Origin: Ectothiorhodospiraceae bacterium 2226
GTDB taxonomy: Bacteria > Pseudomonadota > Gammaproteobacteria > GCA-013348725
Assembly (NCBI GenBank): GCA_013348725.1
Contig: CP054689.1
Location: forward strand, 2,476,501 to 2,540,500
Reading direction: 5' to 3'
DNA length: 64,000 nucleotides
Shown here: positions 41,332-47,850 of the stretch, in pieces
How positions within the stretch are numbered: position 1 is the first letter of the stretch
Layout of the letters: the number at the start of each line of letters is the position of its first letter
Position numbers and translations under genes: made by a program
The notes under the pieces: generated by a model
Database searches by the model: none
What the model was told of the DNA's origin: nothing
What the model saw: only the letters and a program-made list of their open reading frames with translations

Positions 41332-42099
41332 TCAGGGATGCTCCGCCGCGATGGCGCGCAGGCGCGGAACCTCCAGCCCGGCGGCATCGGCGTGCATGAG
41401 CGCGCGCGTGAGCCGCGCCGGGGCGCTGCGGCCCATGCACTTGTGCTCGGGGTCGCCCTCGATGGCCTCCACCATGCCGGCGATGAGCCGTGCCCGGTCT
41501 AGCGTACGGCCGGTCAGCCCTTCTTGGATGTCGATCACCTCGTCGGCCACTTCGCGGGCCAGCGCATTGTGCTCGCGCCAGAGGGCGTCGACCGTGCCGC
41601 CGACCACCAGGCCGGCGATGTTCACGGTGAGGATGTAGACGTTCTTGCGGACCAATTCGTAGAGCATTTCGTCCGCGTCGTCGACGACGCGCGCGGGGAT
41701 GTCGATACGCGTCAGTGCGTTGCACAGCAGGTCTGCGTGCGGCCCGTAGACGGGCGAGGGCAGCAGCACCTTGACGTCCTGGCCCTTCTTCTTTTCGAAC
41801 CACACCGCGACGACCGTGGGGTCCGGCACCGCGTGACGCTCCCAGTCGCCCGGCAGCAGTTCGTTCTGCAGCAACGCCAGGCGCGTGCGCCAAGCGTCGG
41901 GCATGCTTTCGAGTACAGGGTGCAAGTCGTCCTCGGCGACGGCCACCAACACCAGCTTCGGACCGGGCGTCTCGCGCGCCGCGGCACCGAGGTCGATCTC
42001 GCGCGTCACCGGCATCACGGGATGCCCCGTGCGCAGCAGACCGCGCGCGAACACGCCGCCCATCTCGCCCAGACCGACGATGACGATGCTGTCTTTCAC
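41332..42099 (-). CDS. Rossmann-fold NAD(P)-binding oxidoreductase (ketopantoate reductase-like)
   Basis: The 255-residue protein begins MKDSIVIVGLGEMGGVFARG, a GxGxxG nucleotide-binding motif. An all-helical C-terminal domain (YELVRKNVYILTVNIAGLVV, VADEVIDIQEGLTGR, HKCMGRSAPARLTRAL) is like those of 6-phosphogluconate and ketopantoate reductases. The catalytic residues of ApbA/PanE are not all recognisable, so the substrate is open. The GTG at 42099 overlaps the DUF2322 stop (GTGA) and has GGAGGG upstream. The open frame that continues to 42420 is a shadow. Confidence 0.78.
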   Translation of the reverse strand: MKDSIVIVGLGEMGGVFARGLLRTGHPVMPVTREIDLGAAARETPGPKLVLVAVAEDDLHPVLESMPDAWRTRLALLQNELLPGDWERHAVPDPTVVAVWFEKKKGQDVKVLLPSPVYGPHADLLCNALTRIDIPARVVDDADEMLYELVRKNVYILTVNIAGLVVGGTVDALWREHNALAREVADEVIDIQEGLTGRTLDRARLIAGMVEAIEGDPEHKCMGRSAPARLTRALMHADAAGLEVPRLRAIAAEHP

Positions 42100-42431
42100 G
42101 CGGCACCCTCCGGCTTGCGGCGCGCGCGCACCGCGAGGTGCGTGCCGTCTTCGATTACGCGCAGCAGGCGGTCGATGTTGGGGTGACGTCCGGGGCTTTG
42201 GCGCGCCTCGTCGGCATATTCGGCGAACAGCTCCAGGCCTTTCTCCGCGGCCTGCGGTCCGATGCCGCCGAAGTCGAGCGCCAGCTTGTAGTAGACCGCC
42301 AGCGAACCGGCCTGCCCGGGAACGTTCTCGATGACGCCGACCGGCTCGTGACCGTCCGGCCCATAGAGTTCGATGCGCTCGAGCCGGTCCACCGCCGGCA
42401 ACTGCGCGAGGTTCTCGCAAAACGTCGGCAT
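42096..42431 (-). CDS. DUF2322 family protein
   Basis: The 111-residue soluble protein has IENVPGQAGSLAVYYKLALD, AAEKGLELFAEYADEARQ and GRHPNIDRLLRVIEDGTHLA, which match the small DUF2322 family. It is the first gene of the operon with the oxidoreductase, DUF423 and UPF0260 genes, all overlapping or nearly so. GGAGC precedes the ATG. The function is unknown. Confidence 0.8.
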   Translation of the reverse strand: MPTFCENLAQLPAVDRLERIELYGPDGHEPVGVIENVPGQAGSLAVYYKLALDFGGIGPQAAEKGLELFAEYADEARQSPGRHPNIDRLLRVIEDGTHLAVRARRKPEGAA

Positions 42432-42522: not shown

Positions 42523-44064
42523 TCAGGGCAGGCGAGGCGCGATGCGTTGCGCCCGCGGCGGTGCGGGGCGATCCGGGCTCTCCCGTAGCCAGGCGATGAG
42601 GTCCGTCTGTAGCTCGCGGACGGCGCGCTCGCGTGCCTCGGGGGTGGCGCCGTCGCTGTCCCTGAGGATGCGCAGGATGAGCTTCCACTTGGGACCGCGC
42701 AGCGTGCGGGCGGCCTCGCCGAGCGAACGGGCCCCGCGCGCGAGGCCGGGCGCGGGCGCGTCGAAGTCCGACCAGCGCGGATGATCCATCGCCTTGCGCA
42801 AGGCGGGCGGCAGCTTGTCGGTGTAGGCGTGTGCCTCGCCGGCCTGCGCCGGGGTGACCGCCGCCTGACTGGCGTGGCCGCGATGTTCGAGGCCGGCCAC
42901 GAGTTGCAGGTTGCGGGTGGCGATCAGGCGCAGCACGGCCTCGCTCACCGCCAATGTGCGCAGGCCCTCGAACCTCTCGCGGTAGAGGTTGCGCAGCGGG
43001 CGCCGCGCGCCGACCACGGCGCCGCCCAGGATGCCGAGCAGTGTCGGCAGGCCGAACAGCGTGCCGAACGCGGCCACGTCGATGGCGGCACCGGCGCCGG
43101 CGCCGCCGGTGATCGGGCCGAGGGAGGCGAGGCCGTAGCGCTTCAGCGTGTCGGGGTCCAAGGGGTCGCGGCGCCAGCCACCGCCGTGCGCGTCGGCATA
43201 CTCGAAGTCCTCATGGACCCGCGCGCCGAGGATCTCCGGGCTGTAGTTGAAGGCCTTCAGGATCTCCACGGTGAGCCGGCGCTCGCGTTGGCGGGCGTAG
43301 GTCTCGAGGCGACCGGCCGCAGCGTCTAGGGCAGCGGCATCCTGGTGCGGCGCCTGCGCTTCGGCCGCGGCGAGATCGATCAAGGCCTCGGCCAGGGCGC
43401 GGGCCGCGGCCTGCAGACGCCAATCGGTCGCCTCGCTCCGCGCGCGGATCAGCCCATCCAGGGCGGCCTCGGCCGCGGGGAGCACCGCGCGCAGGGTGCG
43501 ATAGAGGCGCCGCTCCGAGGCCCAGTCGTAGACCACGGCGTCGAACGCCACCACGTTGTGCTGGCCGATCTCGGCCAGGCGCGCACGCCATTCGTCGGCG
43601 CGGCCCGGTTGCGCGGTGAAGTTCAACAGCGGCAGCAGCGGGCGGCCGCACAGGGCGAGGATGGCGATCTCGTCGAGGTATTTCTCCAGCACGGGTTCGC
43701 GCGCGTCGATGACGTACAGCGTCGCGTCGCTGAGCAGCACCTGGCGCAGCACCAGCGACTCCTGGGCGAAGCGCGCGTCGGCGCTCGCTACCACTTCCTC
43801 CACCACCGCGGGACGGTCGTGACGCCCCTGGATGCGCTGCTCGAGCAGTTCGTGCAACTGGGCGGAGTTCTCCAGCCCCGGCGTGTCGTAGACCGTGATG
43901 CGCAGTTGGTCGGTGTCGATCAAGCGCAGCGGCTCGATGCGCCGGGTGGTGGCGGGGGAGGGCGAGACGGCACCGAACTCGGCGGTGCGGCCCAGGGTGC
44001 GCAGCAGCGACGTCTTGCCGGTGTTGGTGTGGCCCGCCACGACCAGGTGGAGTTCTTGTGCCAT
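42523..44064 (-). CDS. DUF3482-type GTPase with glycine-zipper segment
   Basis: The 513-residue protein starts with a TRAFAC-type GTPase domain: G1 GHTNTGKTSLLRTL, an Arg/Thr-rich switch I, G3 VYDTPGLENSAQL. A long helical C-terminal half (DUF3482) follows. Around residues 305-350 a Gly/Ala-rich stretch (TGGAGAGAAIDVAAFGTLFG, then LPTLLGILGGAVVGA) looks like a membrane-inserting glycine zipper. The DUF2868 membrane protein gene lies immediately upstream, and the two families are usually found together. Their role is unknown; a dynamin-like or membrane-remodelling activity is one guess. Confidence 0.85.
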   Translation of the reverse strand: MAQELHLVVAGHTNTGKTSLLRTLGRTAEFGAVSPSPATTRRIEPLRLIDTDQLRITVYDTPGLENSAQLHELLEQRIQGRHDRPAVVEEVVASADARFAQESLVLRQVLLSDATLYVIDAREPVLEKYLDEIAILALCGRPLLPLLNFTAQPGRADEWRARLAEIGQHNVVAFDAVVYDWASERRLYRTLRAVLPAAEAALDGLIRARSEATDWRLQAAARALAEALIDLAAAEAQAPHQDAAALDAAAGRLETYARQRERRLTVEILKAFNYSPEILGARVHEDFEYADAHGGGWRRDPLDPDTLKRYGLASLGPITGGAGAGAAIDVAAFGTLFGLPTLLGILGGAVVGARRPLRNLYRERFEGLRTLAVSEAVLRLIATRNLQLVAGLEHRGHASQAAVTPAQAGEAHAYTDKLPPALRKAMDHPRWSDFDAPAPGLARGARSLGEAARTLRGPKWKLILRILRDSDGATPEARERAVRELQTDLIAWLRESPDRPAPPRAQRIAPRLP

Positions 44065-44141
44065 GGGGCTAGCAGCCTTGGCCCTGCCCGGCGCCGGACG
44101 GACCTAGTGAACGCGAGGGCGAGGCCGTGGTTCTCATGTGC

Positions 44142-45647
44142 TTAGCCTACACCGCTCTCGCGCAAGGCCTGCTCGAGCGCGGATTGATCCAGCGCCGCCA
44201 GGGCCTCCGTGTCCAGCACGCGCACCGCCTGCACGCCCGCCTTGCCGGCCGCGGTGCGCCAGTCGCGCTCGCGTTGCGCGAGGTCGATGCCGCGTGCCTG
44301 AGCCGCGGCCGACTCCGCCAGCACGAGCAACAGCGGCGCGCCCGCCGTCTCGCCGATGTCGACGAGCCGCACGGTGGCGCCGCGGTCGGGGCTGCGGGCC
44401 ATGGAGGCCACCGCAAGCACGAAGCGCGGCGGCGTGCTCAGGCTGCGCAGCCCCGCCAGCGCGGCGGCCATCTCGGCGCGCGTGCCGACGTGGCCCGCGT
44501 CGACCACGCGCCACTGCGCGCCCCGCGGCGGCCAGTGCCCCGCCTCGTCGAGTTCCAGACCCACCAGCACGAAGTAATCCCCGCGGCCGAGAGGCGCGCG
44601 GCGCGGGGCGCGCGCGGGCGCCGGAATCGTCGGGGCCGGGCCGGCGGGAGGCGCCGTCTCGGCCTGGCGCAGCGCGAGCAGTGCCTCCTGGAACAGGGCG
44701 TGCCCCTGGTCCAGGCGCAGCCGGCGCGCGACGCGCCACGCCTGCAGCAGGCACAGCAGCCCGAACGCCAGGCGCGGCAGCAGGGCGTACACCACCAGGG
44801 CGACGATCAGAAACTGCCCCCAGGCCATGCGCCCGGCGCCGGGCGCCTCGCCGCCCAGGCGGGTGGCCTCCAGCAGGGCGCGGTCGGGCGCGGGCAGGCC
44901 CAGCGCGTCGGGCAGCCAGCCGAGGCTCAGGATGAGCCGGGCCGCCGCGTCGTCCGCCAGGATGGTGGTGCCCCACACGAAGTCGTACTGCGCGACGCTG
45001 AGGCTGACCACGCTGTAGAGCAAGGCGCCCAGCGCGAACGCCAGCCACGCAGCGTGGGTGATGGCGCCCAGCACCCAGCGGTCGAGCCCGTCGCGGAACA
45101 GCACCTCTCGCAGCGCGGACACCGCCAGGCGGCGCTCGGTTTGCGCGGCGCGCTCTTGGAGCGAGAGTTGCGCGAGCCGCCGTGCCGATTGCGTGCCGAG
45201 CCACGCCAACGCGTGGCCGATCACGCCGCCCGTCAGCCAGTCGGCCCCGCCGCGCCTGCGCCCGGCCAGCGAGGCGGCGAGGAACACCAGCCAGAGCAGG
45301 AGCAGCGCGAGTTGCACCCCGATCAGGGCGACCATGGCCTCGACGATGTTGATGGTCGTGCCTGTGCGGGTGAGCACCGAGGCGGCCGTCGAGTAACCGC
45401 CTGCGAACACCACCACGAGCAGGACGATCAGGGTGAACTTCAGCCACCAACCGACGGCGGCGAGTGCGGCCCCGAAGCGCTCGGCGGCCGCGCTGTGGGC
45501 GACCCACTGCAGCAGGCGGTGCTCGTCGTCGCCGCGCGCCTCACGCGCGCGCCGTGCGCCCGCAGTGTCATCGAGCAGCAGGGCCCTGGCGTCCGGGTGG
45601 CGCCTTAGCGCTTCGGCGATCAGCAGGGCCTTGAGTCGACCGCTCAT
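44142..45647 (-). CDS. DUF2868 family integral membrane protein
   Basis: The 501-residue protein starts MSGRLKALLIAEALRRHPDA and has four or more membrane helices (about residues 62-86, 101-125, 180-205, 285-310). It ends in a soluble domain with FVLVGLELDEAGHWPPRGAQ and LVLAESAAAQARGIDLAQRE. This is the DUF2868 family, found next to DUF3482 GTPases. The start at 45647 is chosen because the upstream extension is low-complexity sequence antisense to uppP. It is 11 bases after uppP and 77 bases before the GTPase gene. Confidence 0.83.
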   Translation of the reverse strand: MSGRLKALLIAEALRRHPDARALLLDDTAGARRAREARGDDEHRLLQWVAHSAAAERFGAALAAVGWWLKFTLIVLLVVVFAGGYSTAASVLTRTGTTINIVEAMVALIGVQLALLLLWLVFLAASLAGRRRGGADWLTGGVIGHALAWLGTQSARRLAQLSLQERAAQTERRLAVSALREVLFRDGLDRWVLGAITHAAWLAFALGALLYSVVSLSVAQYDFVWGTTILADDAAARLILSLGWLPDALGLPAPDRALLEATRLGGEAPGAGRMAWGQFLIVALVVYALLPRLAFGLLCLLQAWRVARRLRLDQGHALFQEALLALRQAETAPPAGPAPTIPAPARAPRRAPLGRGDYFVLVGLELDEAGHWPPRGAQWRVVDAGHVGTRAEMAAALAGLRSLSTPPRFVLAVASMARSPDRGATVRLVDIGETAGAPLLLVLAESAAAQARGIDLAQRERDWRTAAGKAGVQAVRVLDTEALAALDQSALEQALRESGVG

Positions 45648-45658
45648 GACGCCCCGCG

Positions 45659-46468
45659 CTACGCCCCGTTCGGCCAGAACAGGTAGAGCAGCACCAGCCC
45701 CAGCACGATGCGGTAGGCCACGAAGGGCTGCATGCCGATGCGTTTGATGAAGGCGATGAAGTAGTAAATGGTGAGATAGGCGCTGATGCCGGCCACCACC
45801 GCGCCGATGAGCATGGCGCCCCACGGCACCGGTTCGCCGAGACGGATCAGGTGCACGGTCTCCAGTCCCCCCGCCAACACGATCACCGGGATGGACAGCA
45901 GGAACGAGAAACGGGCCGCGGCCTCCCGGCTCAGGCCGAGCAGCAGCGCGGCCGTGATGGTGATCCCCGAGCGCGAGGTGCCGGGAATCAGCGCCAGGGC
46001 CTGGGCGCAGCCGATGAACAGCATGTCCCAGACGCTCAGCGAGTGCTCGTTGCGTCCCGTGCGGTGGCGCCAGTCCGCCCAGCCGAGCAGCAGGCCGAAA
46101 CCGATCAAGGCCCAGGCCATGATGAGCGGCGAGCGCATGCCCTCGGCGATCACGTCACGGAAGGCGAGTCCGGCGAGGCCGACGGGAATGGTGCCGAGCA
46201 GCACCCACCAAGCGAGTTTCGCGTCGGGCGTGATCTCGCGGGTCACCAGCGAACGGGTCCAGTCGCGCGACATCGCGAGCAGTTCATGCCGAAAGTAGAA
46301 CACCACGGCGCTGAGCGTGCCCACATGCGTCGCCACGTCGAAGGCGAGCCCCTGGTCCTCCCACGCGGTCAGCACCGGCACCAGAATCAGGTGGGCGCTG
46401 CTCGAGATGGGCAGGAATTCGGTCAGCCCCTGCACGACGGCAAGGACCAGCGTCTGCAAAAGATCCAT
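45659..46468 (-). CDS. uppP: Undecaprenyl-diphosphate phosphatase UppP (BacA)
   Basis: The 269-residue membrane phosphatase has the two family signatures: VVQGLTEFLPISSSAHLIL near the N-terminus (catalytic Glu and Ser cluster) and ALIPGTSRSGITITAALLLG in the middle, with the catalytic Arg. It recycles the undecaprenyl-phosphate carrier used for peptidoglycan and other surface polymers and gives bacitracin resistance. It may head an operon with the DUF2868/DUF3482 genes. No clear ribosome-binding sequence precedes its ATG. Confidence 0.95.
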   Translation of the reverse strand: MDLLQTLVLAVVQGLTEFLPISSSAHLILVPVLTAWEDQGLAFDVATHVGTLSAVVFYFRHELLAMSRDWTRSLVTREITPDAKLAWWVLLGTIPVGLAGLAFRDVIAEGMRSPLIMAWALIGFGLLLGWADWRHRTGRNEHSLSVWDMLFIGCAQALALIPGTSRSGITITAALLLGLSREAAARFSFLLSIPVIVLAGGLETVHLIRLGEPVPWGAMLIGAVVAGISAYLTIYYFIAFIKRIGMQPFVAYRIVLGLVLLYLFWPNGA

Positions 46469-46500: not shown

Positions 46501-47850
46501 TCAGAGCAGCACCGCCGTGGCGATCGAGAAATAGATCAGAATGCCCACCACGTCCGCGATGGAGGTGATGAGCGGCGCACTGGCCGTGGCGGGGTCCAGG
46601 TTGAAGCGGCTCAGCAGGAAAGGTAGCAGGATGCCGATCATACTGCCGATGACGACCACCAGCATCATGGCGAGCGACACCACGATCGCGACGTCGGTGC
46701 CGCCGCGCCAGAACCCCAAGCCGAACACCACCACCGCCACCGTCGCGCCGAGCGCCAGGGCGACCCCGAACTCCTTGGCCCACAGCCTGAACCAATCGCG
46801 AGCCTCCACGTCGCCGGTGGCCAGTGCGCGCACCATCAGCGTCGCGGCCTGGGCGCCGGCGTTACCCCCGCTGGCAACGATCAGCGGCAGGAAGAACACC
46901 AGCACGATCACCGCTTCCAGGGTCGCTTCGAAATAGGCGAGGCCCGCGCCGCTGAAGATGTTCACGAAGGTGAGCAGGGTCAGCCAGCCGACGCGCTTGC
47001 GGTAGAGCAGGCTCGCCTTGGCGTCGCGCAGGCTGAGGTCGATGGTGCCGACGGCACCGATCTTGTGGAAGTCCTCGGTGGTCTCCTGTTCGGCGACGTC
47101 CATCACGTCGTCCACCGTCACCAGACCGAGCAGCACGCCGTGCTGGTCGATAACCGGCAGCGCCTCGAGGTCGTAGTGACGGATCAGCCGCACCGCTTCC
47201 TCGCGGTCCTGCCATGCACCGATACTGACGAAGTAGCCCGGCATGAGGTCCGAGACGTGCGCGTCCGGCTCGGTGAGGATGAACTGCTTGATCTTGATGG
47301 CGTCGAGCAGTTTGCCCTGGTCGTCGGTGACGAAGATGACGTTGACCGTCTCGCCCTTTTGGCTCTGGGCGCGGATATGCTCCAGGGCACGCGAGATGCT
47401 CCAGTCCGGATGTACCGCGACGTAGCGCGGCGTCATCAGGCGTCCGGCGCTTTGCTCCGGGTAACCGAGCAGCTTGAGCGCCTGCTTGACGTCGGCCGGC
47501 GTGAGCCACTTGAGCAGGCGCTCCACGCCCTCGGGCGGCAGACTCTCCAGCAGCGCCGTGCGGTCGTCGGGCAGCAGGTTGGTGAGGACGTGGCGGCCTT
47601 CGGCGTAGTTCAGGTGGTCGAGCAGCTCCACCTGGCCACCGATGTTCAGATAAGAGAACGTGGGTGCCCAGCGCTCGCGCGGCAGCAGGCGTAAGACGCG
47701 CAGGCGCGCGCCGACGTCCATCGCATCGAGTTGCTGCGCGATGTCCTGGACGTGCATCTGCTCGAGCGCGGCAGGGACCTCGTCCCAGCGGTCCTGCTCG
47801 ATCAGCGCCCCGAGGTTGACGGTCAGTTCGTCCGGCTTGTTCTGTTCCAT
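46501..47850 (-). CDS. mgtE: Magnesium transporter MgtE
   Basis: The 449-residue protein shows the complete MgtE layout: an N-terminal superhelical domain (residues 1-130), two CBS domains (about 130-255, with LMTPRYVAVHPDWSISRALE and LPVIDQHGVLLGLVTVDDVM) and five C-terminal membrane helices (RVGWLTLLTFVNIFSGAGLA, LIVASGGNAGAQAATLMVRA, LDPATASAPLITSIADVVGI). It is a Mg2+-gated Mg2+ channel. ATG 47850 is preferred over a TTG nine codons earlier. No Mg2+ riboswitch was recognised in its leader. Confidence 0.95.
   Translation of the reverse strand: MEQNKPDELTVNLGALIEQDRWDEVPAALEQMHVQDIAQQLDAMDVGARLRVLRLLPRERWAPTFSYLNIGGQVELLDHLNYAEGRHVLTNLLPDDRTALLESLPPEGVERLLKWLTPADVKQALKLLGYPEQSAGRLMTPRYVAVHPDWSISRALEHIRAQSQKGETVNVIFVTDDQGKLLDAIKIKQFILTEPDAHVSDLMPGYFVSIGAWQDREEAVRLIRHYDLEALPVIDQHGVLLGLVTVDDVMDVAEQETTEDFHKIGAVGTIDLSLRDAKASLLYRKRVGWLTLLTFVNIFSGAGLAYFEATLEAVIVLVFFLPLIVASGGNAGAQAATLMVRALATGDVEARDWFRLWAKEFGVALALGATVAVVVFGLGFWRGGTDVAIVVSLAMMLVVVIGSMIGILLPFLLSRFNLDPATASAPLITSIADVVGILIYFSIATAVLL

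Follow-up and report, generated by a model that had tools for sequence, protein, structure and literature searches.

A DUF3482 GTPase inherited together with a membrane protein that probably carries a degenerate G domain

Two neighbouring genes encode a GTPase and a membrane protein

The window analysed here is a stretch of 64,000 nucleotides from Ectothiorhodospiraceae bacterium 2226 (assembly GCA_013348725.1, contig CP054689.1, positions 2,476,501 to 2,540,500). Two neighbouring genes on its minus strand encode a DUF3482 GTPase and a DUF2868 membrane protein. A sequence-only reading had described them as an undescribed membrane GTPase module, and open reading frames and Pfam confirm both genes at the positions listed below. 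DUF3482 (PF11981) scores 160.1 bits in the 513-residue protein (E 1e-46, gathering cut-off 29.2), and DUF2868 (PF11067) scores 173.2 bits in the 501-residue protein (E 1.3e-50, gathering cut-off 26.8). The genome is one contig of 2.96 Mb and contains a single match to each family. No promoter-like site was detected in a scan of the locus, and sites resembling terminators were near chance level. The two genes and their features are as follows, with the evidence for each in brackets.

42523-44064, minus strand: DUF3482 GTPase gene, 513 residues (open reading frame, Pfam, AlphaFold 2 (AF2) model)
43450-44064, minus strand: Era/FeoB-like G domain, residues 1-205 (structure comparison of the AF2 model)
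44011-44034, minus strand: G1/P-loop GHTNTGKT, residues 11-18 (sequence)
43876-43887, minus strand: G3 motif DTPG, residues 60-63 (sequence)
43609-43629, minus strand: non-canonical G4 region LLNFTAQ without NKxD, with W159 just downstream (sequence alignments)
43021-43137, minus strand: glycine-rich hairpin, residues 310-348, candidate membrane insertion element (hydropathy; low model confidence)
44142-45647, minus strand: DUF2868 membrane protein gene, 501 residues (Pfam, AF2 model)
45372-45428, minus strand: core of transmembrane segment 1, residues 74-92 (hydropathy)
45279-45335, minus strand: core of transmembrane segment 2, residues 105-123 (hydropathy)
44994-45050, minus strand: core of transmembrane segment 3, residues 200-218 (hydropathy)
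44754-44810, minus strand: core of transmembrane segment 4, residues 280-298 (hydropathy)
44145-44582, minus strand: C-terminal domain, probably cytosolic, residues 356-501, probable degenerate G domain (AF2 model, profile match, alignments)

The GTPase contains a G domain that is modelled well by AlphaFold, followed by long helices and a glycine-rich stretch. The G1 and G3 motifs that the sequence-only reading had claimed are both present (GHTNTGKT and DTPG), and their presence on a G-domain fold places the protein among the TRAFAC/Era-like P-loop GTPases. The Pfam family MMR_HSR1 matches at 41 bits (E 2.3e-10, cut-off 21.9). The top structural row for the G domain is Era (3iev_A, Z 14.7, root-mean-square deviation (rmsd) 4.1, 165 residues aligned), followed by IF2 and FeoB, with many rows tied; Foldseek matches the GTPase model to 7c1o at E 3.2e-5. 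The protein nevertheless lies far below the Era cut-offs (19.8 bits vs 116.25 for TIGR00436, 23 vs 237 for NF000908), and it differs from Era in its C-terminal half, which is DUF3482. Pfam finds no RNA-binding domain in it. Across the family, GxxxxGK[ST] followed by D[TS]PG is present in 113 of 115 GTPase rows (one genome is counted twice), and the remaining two rows have SHTN[IN]GKT and DTPG. The G4 region is non-canonical: within 230 residues from the P-loop, none of the 113 GxxxxGK[ST] rows contains [NT]KxD, and the position mostly reads hLNFx or hINxx. W159 is one of 26 residues that are invariant among 11 aligned G domains. This unusual G4 and the soluble C-terminal domain of the DUF2868 protein were both missing from the sequence-only reading.

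The DUF2868 protein contains four predicted transmembrane segments, which supports the membrane link that had been proposed for the pair. The segments delimited by these helices contain 11, 1, 11, 3 and 9 lysine plus arginine residues, and by the positive-inside rule both termini are therefore predicted to lie in the cytosol. The AF2 model of the whole protein has a mean pLDDT of 74.2 and a pTM of 0.60. Residues 356-501 are modelled as beta-beta-alpha-beta-alpha-beta-alpha-beta-alpha, which is the order of a G domain minus helix alpha1 and strand beta2. The P-loop GxxxxGK[ST] was found in none of 113 DUF2868 rows. Two short DUF2868 proteins (loci L040 and L156) were at one point thought to lack the C-terminal domain; this was rejected, as both retain it.

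The two genes are inherited as one unit

The distribution of the pair was assessed in a class sample of 274 genomes and a phylum sample of 398 genomes, with four genomes, including the one studied here, in both. DUF3482 is over its cut-off in 13 of 274 and 36 of 398 genomes, respectively, and the identical 13 and 36 genomes carry DUF2868 (the phylum lists were compared by eye). No genome in either sample has one family over cut-off without the other. In both samples the two genes share a contig and a strand, within about 2 kb of each other and with DUF2868 upstream; in genome G484 they form a single frame. These counts omit three class-sample genomes (loci L015-L017) and five phylum-sample genomes with only sub-cut-off DUF3482 matches, as well as two sub-cut-off DUF2868 matches. 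Six of these eight DUF3482 matches are confined to the glycine-rich part of the profile (positions of about 150-217), and in L017 the frame that matches starts like a lipoprotein. Of 531 relatives in a contig scan, the best 80 were kept, almost all of them from Pseudomonas or Stutzerimonas; both genes are present in all 80 loci, and with start codons chosen by us their frames overlap in 61 loci, by 8 nucleotides in 47. The trees of 32 paired loci are congruent (r 0.92, reached by 0 of 2000 permutations), which shows joint inheritance, also expected from species phylogeny alone. Frequent separation of the two genes had been set beforehand as the observation that would speak against a two-gene module, and the result went the opposite way, with no separation in the two samples and with natural fusions (see below). 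The DUF2868 and DUF3482 genes are inherited as one unit and can be one polypeptide.

The pair is also carried by Neisseria gonorrhoeae. The one exception to the pairing is found in Moraxella catarrhalis prophage records, 14 of which match the GTPase; when the phage collection was searched with the Neisseria DUF2868 protein, no match turned up in these 14. The Moraxella partner may lie outside the prophage records, and the prophage boundary may fall between the GTPase and its partner, or in the partner's place. In one of the 14 records (KR093656, locus L123, 4965-6365), the GTPase match comes after a small gene, which we take to resemble a phage excisionase. Pseudomonas phage Y10 (OQ572411, locus L124, marked UNVERIFIED) contains a bacterial DUF2868-GTPase pair, which is probably host DNA. 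A search of IMG/VR gave one weak match of 60 residues, and a plasmid search matched only two chromosome-sized Neisseria records. These Neisseria gonorrhoeae "plasmid" records (NZ_CP119142 and NZ_CP119140) are 2.17 Mb each and are probably chromosomes.

The C-terminal domain of the DUF2868 protein resembles the partner's G domain

The C-terminal domain of the DUF2868 protein is probably a degenerate G domain related to that of its partner, minus the P-loop, helix alpha1 and strand beta2. A comparison of this domain (42-row profile) with the G domain of the partner (29-row profile) gave a match with probability 80 and a score of 37.2 over 74 columns. Control scores were 25.6 for Der-1 and 17.6 for Der-2 (30 Der sequences), 15.1 for Era (29 sequences), 14.7 for the transmembrane part, 11.9 for the reversed profile and 10.2 for the DUF3482 half. 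None of 200 block shuffles (maximum 28.3) and none of 200 column shuffles (maximum 22.1) reached 37.2. The profile alignment and the models agree that DUF2868 residues 390-401, 409-415, 422-435, 439-445, 456-469 and 474-479 pair in order with GTPase elements 97-111, 114-120, 126-137, 143-148, 155-165 and about 172. W463, the sole invariant residue in 19 aligned DUF2868 domains, aligns with W159 of the GTPase. The structures aligned to the domain by VIA-align include EF-Tu (2bvn_A, Z 9.6, rmsd 3.3, 133 residues aligned) and the FeoB G domain (2wjh_A, Z 9.2, rmsd 3.5, 129 residues aligned).

Several results weigh against this assignment. VIA-align usually gives Z 7-8 without a clear relative, and a Z of 9.6 is only modestly over this background. 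Foldseek of the DUF2868 model against the PDB gave no match at E <= 0.001, and a PDB sequence-profile search with the domain gave four matches up to E 10, none of them a GTPase. With single sequences, the partner ranks second of 16 own-genome matches with one profile (17.6 vs 19.2 for Der) and first with another. A smaller alignment gives a weak match (probability 21), and profiles built within subclades give probabilities of 1-8; in one subclade the partner family scores 24.5 and 22.3, and Der-1 scores 23.8. In family f107, described below, no match is seen between the DUF2868 domain and the GTPase of the same family (score 14.7).

The domain may alternatively be an ordinary Rossmann-like alpha/beta domain, receiver-like or B12-like, that does not descend from G domains, in which case the pair would cooperate in some other way. 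The absence of GTPases from the PDB sequence search and the weak, unspecific subclade matches are consistent with this, as is the top Foldseek row, which is a protein with a B12-binding domain (E 2.4e-2; no row passes 0.001). We nevertheless consider it unlikely, because the full-profile match to the partner's G domain exceeds the reversed, shuffled and Der/Era controls, the tryptophan is common to both domains, and named GTPases make up most of the 50 VIA-align rows, though these rows are drawn from Foldseek's own list. In the eukaryotic protein p190RhoGAP, a region of GTPase fold is named a pseudoGTPase. The likeness to DUF2868 lies in this, and we claim no relationship. Among the titles listed in the pseudo-GTPase literature searched (15 of 18), none points to a bacterial membrane-anchored pseudo-GTPase.

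Natural fusions have lost the nucleotide-binding motifs

In family f107 (of G484), 33 of 150 genomes match a 720-residue protein in which the membrane part of DUF2868 is continuous with DUF3482. Thirty of these loci were examined (three matching genomes were left out); nine are fused, and in the other 21 the two genes are separate neighbours, one of these cases being truncated where the locus ends. Two fused open reading frames were scanned with Pfam, and each exceeds the cut-offs of both families. The nine fusions share 34-75% identity with each other and are thus too different to be one assembly error. They retain the membrane part and the glycine zipper. Neither a P-loop nor DTPG is found in the aligned part of the nine fused proteins; a GGKT string at residue 42 of the L253 fusion lies upstream of the aligned protein. 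In contrast, the 20 separate f107 GTPases listed all contain [SA]HTNxGKT and D-x-PG, and covalent linkage was therefore accompanied by loss of these nucleotide-binding motifs. The alpha/beta domain of the fused proteins matches the f107 GTPase with probability 97 (E 3.9e-11) but not the f107 DUF2868 tail (score 11.4); this profile comparison traces it to the GTPase gene, as a G domain that has degenerated. Two other explanations were rejected: that the C-terminal domain of DUF2868 takes the place of the G domain in the fused proteins, which is at odds with this derivation, and that f107 GTPases in general lack a P-loop.

Proposed mechanism and comparison with known systems

The chances seem to us about even that the pair works as one two-subunit inner-membrane switch, composed of a GTPase and a membrane-anchored pseudo-GTPase receptor. 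We propose this because the pair combines a probable pseudo-G domain, membrane-anchored and predicted to face the cytosol, with a soluble GTPase whose hairpin may act on membranes. The four-helix DUF2868 protein would present its cytosolic pseudo-G domain as a receptor, a role that we assign with somewhat less than even confidence. The GTP-loaded DUF3482 GTPase would dock its G domain to the pseudo-G domain, as paired GTPases do; docking would free the glycine-zipper hairpin to enter the inner membrane, and hydrolysis would reset the GTPase and release the hairpin. In the fused lineage, a covalent link would have taken over from recruitment under GTP control, leaving the G domain free to lose its GTP-binding motifs. 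This lineage fits the mechanism, since GTP control would be dispensable once the GTPase is tethered. At the membrane step, two observations count against the proposal. The glycine zipper claimed by the sequence-only reading does exist as a glycine-rich stretch at about residues 310-348, but its insertion into membranes is only possible, because its family-averaged hydropathy is mild (1.1-1.4, clearly below the 2.05-2.2 of the DUF2868 transmembrane segments) and AlphaFold confidence is below 50 at residues 315-355.

FeoB couples a G module to transmembrane helices in one active chain and is an iron transporter. Both the DUF3482 and the DUF2868 proteins have its G domain among their best structural matches; in the pair, however, the switch and its anchor are separate proteins, and the copy on the anchor is probably degenerate. 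YcjX/YcjF and the DO-GTPase systems are alike in combining a GTPase with a membrane component. In Pfam searches up to E 0.1, the DUF2868 protein matched no other GTPase-membrane family, and the GTPase matched none named YcjX or YcjF. Passages of PMC11237479 and PMC7159879 predict a membrane-stress role for DO-GTPases near PSP genes.

It is quite unlikely that the pair is instead a divergent bacterial dynamin-like system, in which GTP-driven assembly bends, fuses or cuts the inner membrane. The long helices after the G domain are consistent with such a system, as are a sub-cut-off Dynamin_N match (20.3 bits vs 27, E 5.9e-4), a LeoA model match (E 1.7e-5) and chains of IniA, called a dynamin-like protein in one source passage, in the Foldseek list (E 3.7e-4); dynamin-like genes are also mostly paired, according to a passage of PMC6104087. 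However, the G domain aligns best in structure with Era, IF2 and FeoB, rmsd exceeds 30 in the IniA alignments, and the pair contains no second active GTPase and no [NT]KxD. As passages of PMC4159319 and PMC6104087 describe them, Cj-DLP1/2 and LeoA with LeoBC resemble the pair in adjacent GTPase genes and heterotypic partnership, and LeoBC has a predicted membrane anchor on a GTPase domain. In the pair described here, by contrast, one partner has four transmembrane segments and no P-loop, and the active G domain is nearest to the Era type, with Dynamin_N below cut-off.

Distribution and likely role

In family f160 (of G390), probably the Pseudomonadaceae, 128 of 148 genomes contain DUF3482, and 18 of the 20 without it come from one genus, g555. 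The gene looks like a resident with clade-wise loss rather than a mobile defence island, and its near-core presence makes a housekeeping role likelier than defence. Our guess is constitutive membrane maintenance. We note that g555 offers a clean natural-loss comparison, in that none of its 18 sampled genomes has a DUF3482 match, compared with 128 matching genomes among the 130 in the rest of f160. In genome G909 (contig C1, 4326257-4327089), parts of DUF3482 fall in two different frames, which may reflect a frameshift.

A conflict or anti-phage module akin to GTPase-centred systems is very improbable. PADLOC gives weak matches to LeoA, mad8 and LeoBC, and passages of PMC7159879 describe conflict systems of a GTPase plus transmembrane component (DO-GTPases); against this stand the near-core distribution in f160 and the absence of a widely shared third gene across 30 representative loci, where clusters of at least three loci were considered and no search for variable effectors was made. 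Apart from the pair and open reading frames antisense to it, these clusters are one of assorted ABC ATPases in 10 of the 30 loci, a superfamily effect, and others of 3-5 loci.

Four other genes surround the pair in the window.

41332-42099, minus strand: ketopantoate-reductase-like gene, downstream of the GTPase
42096-42431, minus strand: DUF2322 gene, downstream of the GTPase
45659-46468, minus strand: uppP, upstream neighbour of DUF2868, outside the conserved unit
46501-47850, minus strand: mgtE

These neighbours were searched for with phmmer (E 1e-5) in 116 other loci with a median length of 17 kb, of which 114 contain a separate GTPase, one a fusion (L154) and one neither (L122); L030 and L042 are the same gene. 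No relative of DUF2322 or of the reductase was found in the 116 loci, and an mgtE relative was found in three. The sequence-only reading had suggested uppP as a possible third member of the unit, and a three-gene unit in undecaprenyl phosphate recycling would agree with the gap of 11 nucleotides between the end of uppP and DUF2868 in the window, but none of the 116 loci has a uppP relative, so the idea is largely refuted and we give it almost no credence. Within 41332-42431, the ketopantoate-reductase-like product is divergent and below every family cut-off, with the DUF2322 gene beside it.

Within the literature searched, the description of the module as undescribed holds: no functional study of the DUF3482/DUF2868 pair was found, and the passages give no tested function. 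A DUF2868 protein appears among the differentially expressed proteins of Thiodictyon syntrophicum in a table row of PMC6413534, both domains are annotated in two hypothetical proteins of Pseudomonas aeruginosa in a passage of PMC12864544, and a table excerpt of one paper enters DUF3482 as 'Ligand'. Both Pfam families remain DUFs, although the GTPase is found in Pseudomonas, Neisseria and Moraxella, and its partner was detected in Pseudomonas and Neisseria.

More speculatively, and with less confidence than we place in the receptor role, gene duplication may have turned one copy into a membrane-anchored pseudo-GTPase receptor for its competent sister, with GTP controlling hairpin insertion and with insertion becoming nucleotide-independent upon fusion. 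If this is true, the fused lineage would be a natural test of what GTP is for in this system. Recognition of the probable pseudo-GTPase turns two unknowns into a specific receptor-and-switch hypothesis, for which the fused lineage would serve as a built-in control.

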